Positions 20,195 to 35,040 of a stretch of 64,000 nt of DNA are shown here, piece by piece (positions within the stretch are counted from its first letter, which is position 1; each line of letters starts with the position of its first letter). Source of the stretch: Dehalococcoidia bacterium (lineage in GTDB: Bacteria > Chloroflexota > Dehalococcoidia > DSTF01 > JACRBR01); the NCBI GenBank assembly GCA_021462855.1, contig JAJTXQ010000046.1, forward strand, positions 1 to 64,000. The letters are read 5' to 3'. Both the position numbers and the translations under genes were made by a program. A model generated the notes under the pieces. It saw nothing but the letters and a program-made list of their open reading frames with translations. It searched no databases and was not told the DNA's origin.

Positions 20195-21220
<1,026 letters not shown>

Positions 21221-21330
21221 GTCGTTCTCCTTACTTGCGGTTGATGCTGCGCGGATCATACCGGCGCGGTAACGCTCGGCATACCCGCAGGGGCCACCCG
21301 GTCGGGATCGAAGCGGGAGCGGGCCCGGGC

Positions 21331-21966
21331 TCAGCGCGCGGCGCGGGCCGCCGGGACGGGGCGCTTCACGCGGAACGTGCAACAGTCGTCGCCGCGCAGC
21401 AGGCTCGTCGTCAGGCGCGCGTCGGAACCGGCGAGCTGGCGGATGAACTGCACATCGAGCGCGCAGACGGCGCTGTTTCGCGTCGCGACATTCCAGAACG
21501 GGCACGTGTGCTTGCGGATGTAGTACGCGCCGTCATCGCCGCTGGCCACCGCCACGTTGCCGCGCTCCTCCAGGATCTCCCCGACCGTCTCGATCCGCTC
21601 GGCATCGCCGAGCCCGTCGAGGCGCGGCATGTAGGGGCCGGCGAATCGCGCCGCGACGGTCTTGAGCAGCTGCTGCAGCGCCTGCGACCCGAGGATGTTG
21701 CGCGCCTCTTCGATCAGCGCGTTCGCGAGCTCGTCGTACCTGGTCGGATACAGCGCATGCCCCGCCTCCGACAGCCGGTAGACGAGCGCCGGGCGGCCGA
21801 CGTGCCCGCGGTCCTCCCGCGCCAGCACCAGGCCGTCGCGCTCGAGCACCGTCAGGTGCTGGCGGATGCCGGTCGACGTCAGGCCCAGCACCTCGCCGAT
21901 CTCCTTGACCGTCGCCTGGTGCCGCTTCCTGAGGTGGTCGAGGATGTCCTGGCGGGTCGCCTGCAT
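21331..21966 (-). CDS. SufR-like DeoR/ArsR-type winged-helix regulator with Fe-S cysteines
   Basis: A 211-aa regulator. Residues 4-65 form a winged helix (HLRKRHQATVKEIGEVLGL, then the wing GRPALVYRLSEAG). The C-terminal half has Cys155, Cys168, Cys195 and Cys196 in the pattern CPFWN-VCALD-GDDCC, as in SufR-type repressors that bind a 2Fe-2S or 4Fe-4S cluster. It probably senses iron-sulfur status or redox. It is divergent from the cupin gene, and the 80-bp gap holds an unusually AT-rich patch (21993-22003) likely to contain the -10 elements and an operator. Targets beyond its own promoter are unknown; the Fe-S enzymes CofG, CofH and LeuC nearby are candidates. Confidence 0.82.
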   Translation of the reverse strand: MQATRQDILDHLRKRHQATVKEIGEVLGLTSTGIRQHLTVLERDGLVLAREDRGHVGRPALVYRLSEAGHALYPTRYDELANALIEEARNILGSQALQQLLKTVAARFAGPYMPRLDGLGDAERIETVGEILEERGNVAVASGDDGAYYIRKHTCPFWNVATRNSAVCALDVQFIRQLAGSDARLTTSLLRGDDCCTFRVKRPVPAARAAR

Positions 21967-22345: not shown

Positions 22346-23677
22346 TCAGGCGCCGGGCGTGCCCGCGGGCGCTGGCGCTGGCGCCGGCCGATAGTGCTCC
22401 GCGAACTTGAACGCCGCATCGTGCGTGAGGCGCGCGTACGAGCCGAAGCGCTCGTCGCCCTCGGCCACGCGGTCGAGCGGGTCGTAATGGTCGTCCTCGT
22501 CGGGCCCGAACGCGCGCACGATGTCGTACAGCGTGTTCCGCTCCGCCGGGATGCGGCCGGCCTCGCGGATCAGCGCCCGCATCTCGCGCGGCGCCATGCG
22601 CTGGCCGTAGATCGCCCCGGCCGACGTGCTGATGCTCTCGTTGATCAACGTGCCCATGAAGTCGTTGCAGCCCGCGTTGAGCATCACCTGCGCGAGCTTC
22701 GGGCCTTCCTTCACCCACGACGCCTGGATGTTCGGGATCCAGTTGTTGAGCATGATCCGTGCGACGGCGTACATCTTCAGCACCTCGGCGCCGGTGGCGC
22801 CGCCGCGCAGCCCGGGCACGAGGCTCTTGGCGTACATCGGCGCTTCCGACGCGATGAAGCTCAGCGGCACGAACTCCGTGAAGCCGCCCGTATCGCGCTG
22901 GATCTCCCGCAGCAGCGCGATGTGCTCCGCACGCTGCCGTGCCGTCTCGATGTGCCCGTACATGATGGTCGACGTCGTGCGCAGGCCCGCGCGGTGCGCC
23001 GATGTGATCACCTCCACCCACTGATCGCGCGTGATGCGGCCCGGCGAGATGCGGTCGCGCACCTCCTGGTCGAGGATCTCGGCCGATGTGCCGGGCAGGC
23101 TGCCGACGCCGGCGTCGCGCAGCGCGCGCACGTACTCGTCGATCGTGCAGCGGGCGCGCACGGCGCCGTACAGCACTTCCTCCGGCGAGAAGCCATGGAT
23201 GTGCATGCCGGGTAACTCTCGCTTGATCGCCTTCGTCAGGTCAACGTAGTAGTAGCCGTCCATCTTCGGCGGCAGGCCCGCCTGCACGCAGATCTCCCGC
23301 GCGCCGAGGTCCCATGCCTCGCGCGCGCGGCGGATCACCTCCCCCTCCGGCAGGAAGTAGCCCTCCTCCTCGCGGTGGTCGCGGCTGAACGCGCAGAACC
23401 CGCAGTGCTTGATGCAGACATTCGTGAAGTTGATGTTGCGGTTGATGACATACGTCACGACATCGCCGGCCGTGCGCCGCCGCAGCTCATCGGCAACGAG
23501 CGCGATCGCGTTCATTGATGCGCCGCCGGCCTCGAACAGCGTCACCGCATCGTCGACGCCGATGTCCTCGCCCGCGAGCGCGCGGTCCAGGACCGTGGCC
23601 ACCTCGCGGTCGATGCGCAGCGTCGTCTGCCACGCGCGCGTCGCCGCGCTCTCCGCGCCGTTCGTGCTCTCTACCAT
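22346..23677 (-). CDS. cofH: FO synthase subunit 2 (CofH), 5-amino-6-(D-ribitylamino)uracil--L-tyrosine 4-hydroxyphenyl transferase
   Basis: A 443-aa radical SAM enzyme with CIKHCGFCAF (CxxxCxxC) near residue 85, which binds the 4Fe-4S/SAM cluster. CofH joins a tyrosine-derived 4-hydroxybenzyl group to 5-amino-6-ribitylaminouracil, the first step to the F420 chromophore FO. The MMGLPPKMD-like segment (QAGLPPKMDGYYY) and GTSAEIL, where the SAM barrel is closed, are typical of the family. The start at 23677 follows GGGAGGAGGAACG and overlaps the cofG stop (23671) by 7 bp, so the pair is translationally coupled. A Pro/Ala-rich tail ends the protein. Confidence 0.95.
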   Translation of the reverse strand: MVESTNGAESAATRAWQTTLRIDREVATVLDRALAGEDIGVDDAVTLFEAGGASMNAIALVADELRRRTAGDVVTYVINRNINFTNVCIKHCGFCAFSRDHREEEGYFLPEGEVIRRAREAWDLGAREICVQAGLPPKMDGYYYVDLTKAIKRELPGMHIHGFSPEEVLYGAVRARCTIDEYVRALRDAGVGSLPGTSAEILDQEVRDRISPGRITRDQWVEVITSAHRAGLRTTSTIMYGHIETARQRAEHIALLREIQRDTGGFTEFVPLSFIASEAPMYAKSLVPGLRGGATGAEVLKMYAVARIMLNNWIPNIQASWVKEGPKLAQVMLNAGCNDFMGTLINESISTSAGAIYGQRMAPREMRALIREAGRIPAERNTLYDIVRAFGPDEDDHYDPLDRVAEGDERFGSYARLTHDAAFKFAEHYRPAPAPAPAGTPGA

Positions 23678-24876
23678 CGTTCCTCCTCCCGCCGGACGAG
23701 GCCATCGTCGCCGGCGCGCTGCGCCATCGCCGCGCGTATGCGTCCCGGCACAAAGCCCTCGAACCCGGCATCCTCTCGCACGTACGCGGGATAGATCCCG
23801 AACCGCTCCCGCAGTTCGAACCCTGCGTCGGAGCACGTGTCGCGCAGCTCGGCGATCTGCGGCCACGGGCGCTCCGGGTTGATGTGGTCCTTCGTCACGG
23901 GCGAGATCCCGCCCCAGTCGTTGATGCCCGCGAGCAAGTACATGCCATGCGCGTCCGGCGTCAGGTTCGGCGGCGCCTGCAGGTTCATCTCGCCGCCGAG
24001 CACGAGCCGCGCCGTCGCGATCGTGCGCAGCATCTCGAACACACTCGGCTCACCCTTATGTCGCATGGCGATGTCTTCCTTCACGCGGAAGTTCTGCACG
24101 ATCACTTCCTGGATGTGCCCGTACCGTTCGTGTAGCTCGCGGATGGCGAACAGTGAGTCGACGCGCTCCTCGCGCGTCTCGCCGATGCCGATGAGGATGC
24201 CGGTCGTCCACGCCACCCGGAGCTCGCCGGCGGCGCGCATCGTCCGCAGGCGCTCCTCCGGCAGCTTGCCCGGGCAGTTCCAGTGCGCCATGCCCCGCTC
24301 GTGCAGCCGCTCCGACACCGTCTCGAGCATCATGCCCATCGAGGCATTGACGTCGCGGAGCGCGGCGATCTCGTCACGTTCCATCACGCCCTGGTTGGCG
24401 TGCGGCAGCAGGCCCGTCTCCCGCAGCACCAGGTCGCACATCTCGCGCAGATACGACGACATCGTCCGGTGCCCGAACCGCGCGAGGTCGGCGCGCACAT
24501 CCTCGTAGATCTCCTCCGGCCGCTCGCCGAGCGAAAACAGCGCTTCCTTGCACCCCTGCCGCTGTCCCGCGCGCGCGACGGCCAGTACCTCGTCGGGCGA
24601 CATCGTGTGCGCGATCGGGTCGCGCGGGCCGCGGGCGAACGTGCAGTATCCGCACTTCTGCCGGCACAGGTTCGTCAGCGGGATGAACACCTTGCGCGAG
24701 TACGTCACCGTTCGCCCGTGTCGCGCGTCGCGCAGGCGCGATGCCGCCGCCATCAGCGCGGCGAGATCCGCGCCGTCGGCGTGGATCAGCCGGTACGCCT
24801 CGGCCGGCGTCATCCGCTCGCCATGAGACGCACGGTCGAGGATCTCCGGGACTTCCGGTGCGATGGCCTGCTGCAT
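23671..24876 (-). CDS. cofG: FO synthase subunit 1 (CofG), 7,8-didemethyl-8-hydroxy-5-deazariboflavin synthase
   Basis: A 401-aa radical SAM enzyme with CRQKCGYCTF near residue 68. CofG closes the deazaflavin ring of the CofH product to give FO. The HTMSPDEVLAVARAGQRQGC and GINDWGGISPVTKDHINPE motifs are characteristic. I start it at ATG 24876 with GGAG 6 bases upstream. The same frame stays open back to GTG 24984, but that stretch carries a hairpin with a T-run and lies just downstream of a promoter, so I read it as leader RNA. FO is the precursor of F420, the likely cofactor of the three LLM oxidoreductases in this window. Confidence 0.95.
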   Translation of the reverse strand: MQQAIAPEVPEILDRASHGERMTPAEAYRLIHADGADLAALMAAASRLRDARHGRTVTYSRKVFIPLTNLCRQKCGYCTFARGPRDPIAHTMSPDEVLAVARAGQRQGCKEALFSLGERPEEIYEDVRADLARFGHRTMSSYLREMCDLVLRETGLLPHANQGVMERDEIAALRDVNASMGMMLETVSERLHERGMAHWNCPGKLPEERLRTMRAAGELRVAWTTGILIGIGETREERVDSLFAIRELHERYGHIQEVIVQNFRVKEDIAMRHKGEPSVFEMLRTIATARLVLGGEMNLQAPPNLTPDAHGMYLLAGINDWGGISPVTKDHINPERPWPQIAELRDTCSDAGFELRERFGIYPAYVREDAGFEGFVPGRIRAAMAQRAGDDGLVRREEERW

Positions 24877-24894
24877 TCGGCTCCAAACGGCGAC

Positions 24895-24921
24895 AAAAAA
24901 GCCGCACCGCGGACGCGCGGC
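24895..24921 (-). terminator. Intrinsic terminator inside the cofG leader
   Basis: On the minus strand GCCGC (24921-24917) pairs with GCGGC (24905-24901) and six T residues follow (24900-24895). The hairpin ends only 18 bases before the cofG ATG. This is one of only two such T-runs behind a hairpin in the whole window; the other is the T-box terminator. Confidence 0.65.
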
Positions 24922-24990
24922 CACGCGCATCCTGCGGCCCGGCGACTGGCTTCCACCGCCAGCAGGCATCACCCGCCAGGTCACTACCTG
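24895..24990 (-). ncRNA. Candidate cis-regulatory leader RNA of cofG-cofH
   Basis: The leader begins at about the predicted transcription start. It opens with three hairpins placed end to end: CAGGT-AGTG-ACCTG (24990-24977), GCGGG-TGATG-CCTGC (24976-24962) and CTGGC-GGTGGAA-GCCAG (24962-24946). A GC-rich stretch and the intrinsic terminator follow. The CCTGC arm of hairpin 2 could instead pair with GCAGG at 24935-24931, giving a mutually exclusive fold. I do not recognise any riboswitch class in it. Another reading is that the frame encodes an extended CofG N-terminus from GTG 24984. Confidence 0.5.
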
Positions 24991-24995
24991 CGGAG

Positions 24996-25024
24996 ATCAT
25001 ACGGACGCGCCGCCGCCCCCGCAA
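24996..25024 (-). promoter_or_regulatory. Probable cofG-cofH promoter
   Basis: On the minus strand TTGCGG (25024-25019), a 17-bp spacer and TATGAT (25001-24996) form a plausible sigma-70-type promoter with a strong -10. The start of transcription would fall near 24989, at the base of the first leader hairpin. Confidence 0.55.
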
Positions 25025-32767: not shown

Positions 32768-33343
32768 CTAGATCAGCGTGCCGACCTTCGCCTTGCCTTC
32801 GCCGGCCGAGCGGTAGCGGTGGTACGCTCCGTTCTCCGTCGGCGCGCTCACCGTCGCCGCGCTCCCTCGCACCATCGCCACGCGCCCCGTGCGCACGAGC
32901 TCCTTCAGCCCGTACGGCTTGAGCATCGCGACGATCGCGTCGACCTTGTCCTCCGTGCCGGTCACTTCCACCACCATCGAGTCGGTGCCGACATCGATGA
33001 TGTTCGCGCGGAAGATGTCGACGATCTCCACGATCGCGCTCCGGTTCTCCTTCGACGCGCTGACCTTGATCAACGCGAGTTCCCGCGCCACCGCGGCCTC
33101 GGCGGTGATGTCGGAGATCTTCACCACCTCGATGATCTTGTACAGCTGCTTCGTCACCTGTTCGATGTCGTGCGCCGCGCCGTCGACGGTGAACGTCATG
33201 CGCGACAGCCCCGCCGTCTCGCTCGGCCCGACCGTCAGGCTCTCGATGTTGAAGCCACGCTGGCGCCACTTGCTGGCGATCTTGTTGAGCACGCCGGGCC
33301 GGTTCTCGACCATGGCGACAATAGTGTGCAATCGGGTGGTCAT
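32768..33343 (-). CDS. ilvN: Acetolactate synthase small (regulatory) subunit
   Basis: A 191-aa regulatory subunit. It has an N-terminal ACT domain (HTIVAMVENRPGVLNKIAS, residues 5-75), which binds valine, and a second ferredoxin-like domain to about residue 160. A roughly 28-residue C-terminal extension (VSAPTENGAYHRYRSAG) exceeds the usual length. The start ATG overlaps the ilvB stop (33340-33343, ATGA), so it is coupled to the catalytic subunit it activates and makes feedback-sensitive. Confidence 0.95.
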   Translation of the reverse strand: MTTRLHTIVAMVENRPGVLNKIASKWRQRGFNIESLTVGPSETAGLSRMTFTVDGAAHDIEQVTKQLYKIIEVVKISDITAEAAVARELALIKVSASKENRSAIVEIVDIFRANIIDVGTDSMVVEVTGTEDKVDAIVAMLKPYGLKELVRTGRVAMVRGSAATVSAPTENGAYHRYRSAGEGKAKVGTLI

Positions 33344-35040
33344 CGCGCAAACTCCGGTTCCTGGACCTTCGGCTGGTCGATCGTGTCCGACAGGCTCGCC
33401 CCCGGCGGCATCATCGGGTAACAGTTCTCGATGTCTTCGACCTGGAAGTCGATGACGACGGCGCCCGGGTGCTGCAGCGCCGCCTCGATCGTCGATGCCA
33501 CGAGCGCCTTGTCGCTGACGCGCACGCCCGTGATGCCCATCGACTCGGCGAGCTTGACGAAGTCCGGCTGGAACATCCGCACGGACTCCTTGTTGCCGCC
33601 GTAGTACAGGTCCTGCCACTGCCGCACCATGCCAAGATAGTTGTTGTTGATGATGGCGAACTTCACCGGCAGCTCGTACTCCGTGCAGAGCGCGAGCTCC
33701 TGCAACGTCATCTGGAAGCCGCCGTCGCCGCAGAACGACCAGACCGTGTCGTGCGGGCGCGCCACCTGCACGCCGATCGCCGCCGGCACCTCGAATCCCA
33801 TGGTGCCGAGCCCGCCCGAGGTGACGAACGAGTAGGGGTGGTCGCCCCAGAAGTACTGCGCTGCCCACATCTGGTGCTGACCGACGCCCGTCGCGTACCA
33901 CGCGTCCGGACCCGACAGCTCGTAGATCTTCTTGATCACGTACTGCGGGATGAGCTTGTCCGTCTCCGGGATGGTGATCGACGGGTGTTTCGCGCGCACG
34001 TCGGCGATCCAGCGGCGCCATGCCGTGTGCTTCGCCGGCTTGAGCTGCGGGATCAGCTGCTGGAGCACGTTCTTCACGTCGCCGACGATCGGCACCGCCG
34101 CCTTCACGTTCTTCGAGATTTCCGCCGGGTCGATGTCGATGTGCACGACCTTCGCGTGCGGAGCGAAGTCCTTGAGCGCGCCCGTCACGCGGTCATCGAA
34201 CCGCATGCCGATGGCGATGAGCAGATCGGCATCCTGGATCGCCATGTTGTTCCAGTACATGCCGTGCATGCCGGGCATGCCCATGTTCAGCTCATGCGAA
34301 CCCGGGAACCCGCCGATGCCGAGCAGCGTCGTGATCACGGGGATGTCGGTCTTCTCGGCGACCTCGCGCAGCTCCTCGGCCGCGCGCGCGATGACGACGC
34401 CGTGGCCGGCGAGGATCAGCGGCTTCTCCGCCTCGGCGATGAGCTGCGCGGCCTTCTTGATCTGCTGCGGGTGTCCTTGCGTCGTCGGCTGGTATCCCGC
34501 GAGCTCGATCTTCTCCGGGTACTCGAACTCCGCGACCTGCTGCTGCAGGTCACGCGGGATGTCGATGAGCACCGGCCCGGGCCGGCCCGTCGTGGCGATG
34601 TGGAACGCCTCGGCGATCGCAGGGGCGATGTCCTCGACGTTGAGCACGAGCACGTTGTGCTTGGTGATGGGGATCGTGATGCCGGTGATGTCGGACTCCT
34701 GGAATCCGTCGCGGCCGAGCAGCCACGACACCACCGCACCGGTGATGCACACCAGCGGCACGGAGTCCATCCACGCGTTGGCGATGCCGGTGACGAGGTT
34801 GGTCGCGCCCGGGCCCGACGTGGCCCAGCAGACGCCGGCCTTGCCCGTCACGCGCGCATAGGCGTCGGCGGCGTGCGCGGCCGACTGCTCGTGCCGCACG
34901 AGGATGTGGCGGATGTCGGGGTACTTCTTCAGCGCGTCGTACAGCGGCAGGTTCGCCCCGCCGGGGTAGCCGAACACCACTTCGACGCCTTCCCTGCGGA
35001 GGCTCTCGAGGATGATCTCGGCGCCATTGATCTTCGTCAT
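33340..35040 (-). CDS. ilvB: Acetolactate synthase large subunit
   Basis: A 566-aa thiamine-diphosphate enzyme that makes 2-acetolactate from pyruvate or 2-aceto-2-hydroxybutyrate with 2-ketobutyrate. The catalytic Glu is in RHEQSAAHAADAYAR (residue about 49). The FAD/central domain holds GMPGMHGMYWNN, and the TPP/Mg motif GDGGFQMTLQEL through NNNYLGMVRQWQ is near 430-465. The start follows AGGAGC by 8 bases. Two leader systems lie upstream, a T-box and a leucine small-ORF/hairpin element, so ilvB expression probably responds both to uncharged tRNA and to translation of Leu codons. Confidence 0.97.
   Translation of the reverse strand: MTKINGAEIILESLRREGVEVVFGYPGGANLPLYDALKKYPDIRHILVRHEQSAAHAADAYARVTGKAGVCWATSGPGATNLVTGIANAWMDSVPLVCITGAVVSWLLGRDGFQESDITGITIPITKHNVLVLNVEDIAPAIAEAFHIATTGRPGPVLIDIPRDLQQQVAEFEYPEKIELAGYQPTTQGHPQQIKKAAQLIAEAEKPLILAGHGVVIARAAEELREVAEKTDIPVITTLLGIGGFPGSHELNMGMPGMHGMYWNNMAIQDADLLIAIGMRFDDRVTGALKDFAPHAKVVHIDIDPAEISKNVKAAVPIVGDVKNVLQQLIPQLKPAKHTAWRRWIADVRAKHPSITIPETDKLIPQYVIKKIYELSGPDAWYATGVGQHQMWAAQYFWGDHPYSFVTSGGLGTMGFEVPAAIGVQVARPHDTVWSFCGDGGFQMTLQELALCTEYELPVKFAIINNNYLGMVRQWQDLYYGGNKESVRMFQPDFVKLAESMGITGVRVSDKALVASTIEAALQHPGAVVIDFQVEDIENCYPMMPPGASLSDTIDQPKVQEPEFAR

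Follow-up and report, generated by a model that had tools for sequence, protein, structure and literature searches.

The gene cofG and, directly after it, cofH lie on the minus strand of the window (the whole 64,000-nucleotide stretch of Dehalococcoidia DNA that was analysed), and their identification in the original prediction as genes for the two subunits of FO synthase agrees with their matches to NCBIfam profiles (Table 1). The products of the pair synthesize the core of cofactor F420, on which methanogens, mycobacteria and many soil bacteria depend as a major redox cofactor. A synteny search found the same order, cofH directly following cofG, in the window and in 10/10 relatives' loci. 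The genes around the pair vary, a divergent acetyltransferase gene being common to four relatives of family f1 and present at none of the family f4 loci, and since the flanking genes differ between loci the RNA considered below travels with cofG rather than with its neighbours. Further along in the window there is a gene for a SufR-like HTH regulator (21334–21966, minus strand), with weak similarity to ATC hydrolase, adjoined by a gene for an LLM-class F420-dependent oxidoreductase (20198–21226); among the relatives examined, just two have the regulator gene close to cofGH.

Table 1. Features of the cofG-cofH locus and its leader (positions are those of the window)
Feature	Positions	Strand	Basis or remark
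Promoter: −35 TTGCGG 25024–25019, 17-nt spacer, −10 TATGAT 25001–24996	24996–25024	−	Direct reading and relatives
P1 5′ strand, GACCUGGC	24975–24982	−	Predicted to pair with 24943–24936
J strand, GGGUGAU	24968–24974	−	6–7 nt in all members, sequence variable (alignment A3)
Putative pseudoknot strand a: GCC in the window, ACC or CCC in relatives	24965–24967	−	Can pair with loop GGU 24957–24955
P3 hairpin, GCUGGC-GGUGGAA-GCCAGU, loop consensus GGKNNRA	24945–24963	−	Two positions covary on both sides
P1 3′ strand, GCCGGGCC, also start of terminator 5′ arm	24936–24943	−	Invariant, 12/12
Intrinsic terminator: hairpin 24943–24901 and U6 24900–24895	24895–24943	−	Terminators in 12/12 leaders
cofG, FO synthase subunit, regulated gene	23671–24876	−	TIGR03550, 462.6 bits
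cofH, second FO synthase subunit	22346–23740	−	TIGR03551, 472.2 bits; synteny

Both ends of the leader are as originally proposed. The promoter, TTGCGG-17-TATGAT at 25024–24996 when read on the minus strand, conforms to the pattern TTGNNN-17/18-TANNNT common to 11/11 cofG leaders, 26–39 nt ahead of a CYUGC element, and in 10 relatives the hexamer at the same place is the stricter TTGACN (TTGACN-17/18-TANNNT), the −35 of the window itself being the weakest. The GC-rich hairpin is followed by six T residues, whose run stops 18 nt short of the cofG start codon (ATG, 24876); 12/12 leaders, this one included, have a terminator hairpin and U-run, at −23 to −43 kcal/mol. Runs of at least five T residues are scarce in this DNA, there being only four when the two strands of the 64 kb are taken together (128 kb of strand), and a very stable hairpin directly abuts two of the four, that of the cofG leader and that of a T-box terminator. 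The earlier statement that only one other hairpin with a T-run exists in the window thus roughly holds if the definition is strict; with looser criteria there are more, ten terminator-like sites being listed in 20 kb versus 4.9 expected.

What the relatives share between promoter and terminator is a core of ~46 nt (45–47 nt across members), which reads, in order, GACCUGGC or UGUCCGGC, 6–7 variable bases, RCCUGC or similar, YRGC, GGKNNRA, GCYRG, 1–2 bases and GCCGGGCC, with the terminator hairpin and U-run following. RNAalifold, applied to the 12-sequence core alignment A3, predicts an outer helix P1 (GACCUGGC:GCCGGGCC) enclosing a hairpin P3 of six pairs with GGKNNRA as its loop. P1 is possible in 12/12 leaders, with 88.5% of cells paired, and is a perfect 8-bp helix in leader L009; its changes are wobble only, no P1 pair being altered on both sides. 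The covariation by which the original prediction was to be judged is present in P3, where two pairs are doubly changed (C-G/U-A and G-C/A-U) with, by hand count on the CofG tree, at least three compensatory events. The three abutting hairpins originally drawn at 24990–24946 did not survive the comparison: only the third (24963–24945, which is P3) is kept in relatives, hairpins 1 and 2 are not conserved, and P1 is shared in their stead. Nor is the suggested alternative pairing of CCTGC with GCAGG (24935–24931) seen in relatives. Another candidate helix, in which ACCUGC would pair with the 5′ end of the transcript (GCAGG, GGUAGGU and similar), was dropped, since not all leaders can form it and part of it lies ahead of the expected start site.

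The RCC strand probably pairs with the first three bases of the P3 loop in a pseudoknot, to judge from the 12 aligned sequences. Six of these have A-U as the variable pair, three have C-G, two have G-U, and L009 has a mismatch, which amounts to one compensatory event; an invariant U (24964) stands directly after the RCC strand. Loop 1 would then be a single U over a 6-bp helix and loop 3 would be NNRA, giving a canonical H-type pseudoknot, with the J strand, constant at 6–7 nt, apparently of sufficient length to span the distance between P1 and the far end of the pseudoknot. Alternatively, the RCC:GGU pairs could belong to a hairpin that replaces P3. In shuffles, which ignore relatedness, 0/500 matched the observed percentage of paired cells, the doubly changed cells or the covariation score, whereas the count of doubly changed pairs was unremarkable (249/500). 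When the pairing partners were slid against each other the paired cells fell from 93.8% to 14–46%. That there is a real RNA here, structured, conserved and linked to a terminator, can be held with high confidence.

How widely is it used? A search for CofG covered 148 related genomes, and the motif is present, at the same place, ahead of 11/11 same-order cofG genes with a readable upstream region, the 11 loci coming from families f1 and f4 and having CofG proteins that are 67–100% identical. A twelfth copy (G016) is on a contig that ends before cofG. This recurrence, in 11/11 leaders and at the contig edge, is more than chance. In one further genome (G013) the contig stops 5 nt beyond a cofG fragment, which places it outside the leader count; a 76% complete genome (G007) and the four from families f2 and f3 gave neither a cofG match nor a copy of the RNA. 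A covariance model of the core matches 12/393 genomes of the class, one copy each and all in this order, with E <4e-7. A degenerate pattern, blind to members whose conserved letters differ, was run against 84,980 species, each represented by a single genome, and returned 65 loci, of which only ten score >50 bits with the model, all of them Dehalococcoidia/Chloroflexi loci of this group. The next-best loci, at 32.5 and 31.4 bits, were rejected, as were many others that are one homologous stretch of Bradyrhizobium. The phylum scan gave no convincing further member outside the order, its best outsider (39 bits, E 5e-4) being inside a penicillin-binding-protein-like ORF, and the viral contigs scanned contained no copy. 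The RNA is single copy per genome and always ahead of cofG-cofH; CofD-family and F420-ligase genes are present without a second copy. Its distribution is very narrow, one order of uncultured Chloroflexota (class Dehalococcoidia), and the set of twelve sequences from that order is small.

Scans with Rfam 15 (4227 models), at gathering cut-offs and at permissive settings, of the window and eight relatives yielded nothing convincing at the leader, in keeping with the early view that no known class fits; the best sub-threshold match near it is on the opposite strand, at 22.9 bits versus a cut-off of 70. The only Rfam match in the window is a T-box leader (RF00230, 35315–35530, minus strand), at 98.6 bits and above the gathering score. 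It lies upstream of a branched-chain amino acid operon whose first member is an acetolactate-synthase-like ORF (33340–35040), followed by a ketol-acid-reductoisomerase-like ORF and then leu genes. Though the cofG leader resembles a T-box leader in carrying a transcription terminator, it has no T-box sequence and the RF00230 model does not match it. The FMN riboswitch (RF00050) likewise serves a flavin-type pathway but has a far larger multi-helix fold; it matches half of 14 control genomes and none of the 18 genomes of the order searched, that of the window included. Closer in scale are the preQ1-I/II, SAM-II and fluoride riboswitches, which share with the core a small H-type pseudoknot with a short loop 1 and an A-containing loop 3, and with the RNA as a whole a helix able to compete with the expression platform; their consensus is different, and there is no Rfam match. 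The HMP-PP (thiS motif) riboswitch is a very compact aptamer that shares sequence with an intrinsic terminator, and a rare class found ahead of the genes of a convergent cofactor pathway (PMC6478431). The cofG RNA differs from it in having its core upstream of the terminator, of which it shares only the 5′ arm, in the genes concerned, and in the lack of a match in the Rfam scans.

We know of no earlier riboswitch candidate for cofactor F420. Within the open-access literature searched, papers containing both terms, F420 and riboswitch, deal with flavin regulation or unrelated matters; the word riboswitch is absent from a 2021 review of F420 biosynthesis, and F420 is absent from a 2022 riboswitch-ligand review in which cofactors for which no riboswitch had yet been described are listed. 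By the measure of Rfam 15 and the open-access literature, the leader most likely represents a new candidate riboswitch class.

The manner in which it would act is suggested by the double use of one strand. In predicted structures 3–8 bases of the P1 3′ strand pair into the terminator in every member, the overlap being 7–8 nt in 9/12 leaders and 3–5 nt in L010, L011 and L096, where P1 and the terminator can for the most part form side by side. Since the P1 3′ strand is also the start of the terminator 5′ arm, P1 and the complete terminator compete, which makes the leader an attenuator. The core folded alone forms P1 and P3 in 10/12 leaders, other local folds beating P1 in the isolated cores of L001 and L003; when the terminator arm is included, GCCGGGCC is predicted to shift partly or wholly into the terminator. 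By calculation the terminator state is the more stable of the two, and forcing P1 costs 0.4 to 13.4 kcal/mol. Several features expected of a riboswitch are thus found together: a position in the 5′ leader, on the transcribed strand and between a promoter-like site and cofG, in 11/11 loci; compensatory change in the secondary structure (P3 and pseudoknot); and, in the predicted structures, a platform exclusive with the aptamer. Accordingly the original proposal of an attenuating structured leader of no described class has gained from the 12-sequence comparison, and the specific fold put forward with it has for the most part been lost. We put at roughly 60% the probability that this is a cis-acting riboswitch-type transcription attenuator ahead of cofG-cofH. 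In such a device a small molecule would bind the pseudoknotted core, the bound core would prevent the terminator from invading P1, and RNA polymerase would then read through, so that termination would be the default and the switch would be of the ON type, a sign that the geometry favours.

That geometry is also where the opposite sign meets its difficulty. With product feedback the P3/pseudoknot form would be the one bound by FO or F420 and would free GCCGGGCC for the terminator, P1 serving as antiterminator without ligand. End-product feedback is the usual logic of cofactor synthesis genes, and the lower energy of the terminator state also speaks for an OFF switch. However, P1 and the pseudoknot look geometrically compatible (0–1 nt between P3 and P1, a constant 6–7-nt J strand and a 1-nt loop over a 6-bp helix). 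This suggests that P1 belongs to the aptamer instead of competing with it, and an OFF switch is on balance unlikely. Somewhat less probable again is an antiterminator dependent on a protein or a small RNA, in which the hairpin and loop would be bound by some regulatory protein that the order possesses. The narrow distribution, the invariant GCCGGGCC and the conserved loop GGKNNRA would all suit such a site, but the loci show no consistent linkage of a regulator gene to cofGH, there is a single site per genome, and a pseudoknot, probable here, is more often a feature of ligand aptamers.

Need the leader switch at all? The energetic dominance of the terminator could mean that it fixes expression at a low level, or marks the end of a small RNA; yet an unregulated leader would not need its CYUGC, its loop and its P1 strands conserved across two families, and this explanation is improbable. 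Most remote is a coding role. The original prediction had raised as a counter-reading that the hairpins could be coding, the frame being open from GTG 24984 in the genome of the window. A coding region here could be an N-terminal extension of CofG or a leader peptide attenuator. Both readings fail on comparison: relatives do not conserve a protein sequence in the upstream frame, leaders L002, L004, L005 and L008 have stop codons in the cofG frame, and core lengths of 45–47 nt break any frame. As to a leader peptide, there are almost no start codons in the L005 and L007 leaders, no ORF is shared, and no conserved short ORF overlies alternative hairpins. Given the stops, the variable core length and the want of a shared ORF, neither extension nor leader peptide explains the conservation, and the chance of either is negligible.

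For a riboswitch-type attenuator the ligand would, with less certainty than the attenuation itself, belong to deazaflavin metabolism. If the switch is of the ON type, the geometry points to a precursor, most plausibly 5-amino-6-ribitylaminouracil, and a precedent for a precursor-activated cofactor pathway is the HMP-PP riboswitch (PMC6478431, PMC7266159). The complete proposal, that an undescribed riboswitch class senses a compound of the deazaflavin pathway (5-amino-6-ribitylaminouracil, FO or F420), regulates the FO synthase genes through termination of transcription and would be the first RNA sensor of that pathway, is tentative and falls a little short of even odds. With its 46-nt core and built-in terminator the RNA is small enough for direct in vitro tests with FO, F420, 5-A-RU, SAM and tyrosine, and if confirmed it could act as a sensor for the F420 pathway.

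An F420-ligase gene (PF01996) is present in 18/18 genomes of the order, among them the four f2/f3 genomes without a cofG match (L127–L129 and G008), where it may reflect salvage of FO or another role. The genome of the window has two extra CofD-family genes (L147 and L148, on G000 contigs 11 and 6) in addition to a stronger match that is probably YvcK-like, and in most relatives with cofG there is likewise one extra CofD-family copy or more. REP-like palindromic elements (CTCCACG..CGTGGAGAGGGG..GGCCGAAGG and similar) lie between terminator and cofG at locus L005, and at L004 REP-like palindromic elements are intergenic, near cofH.
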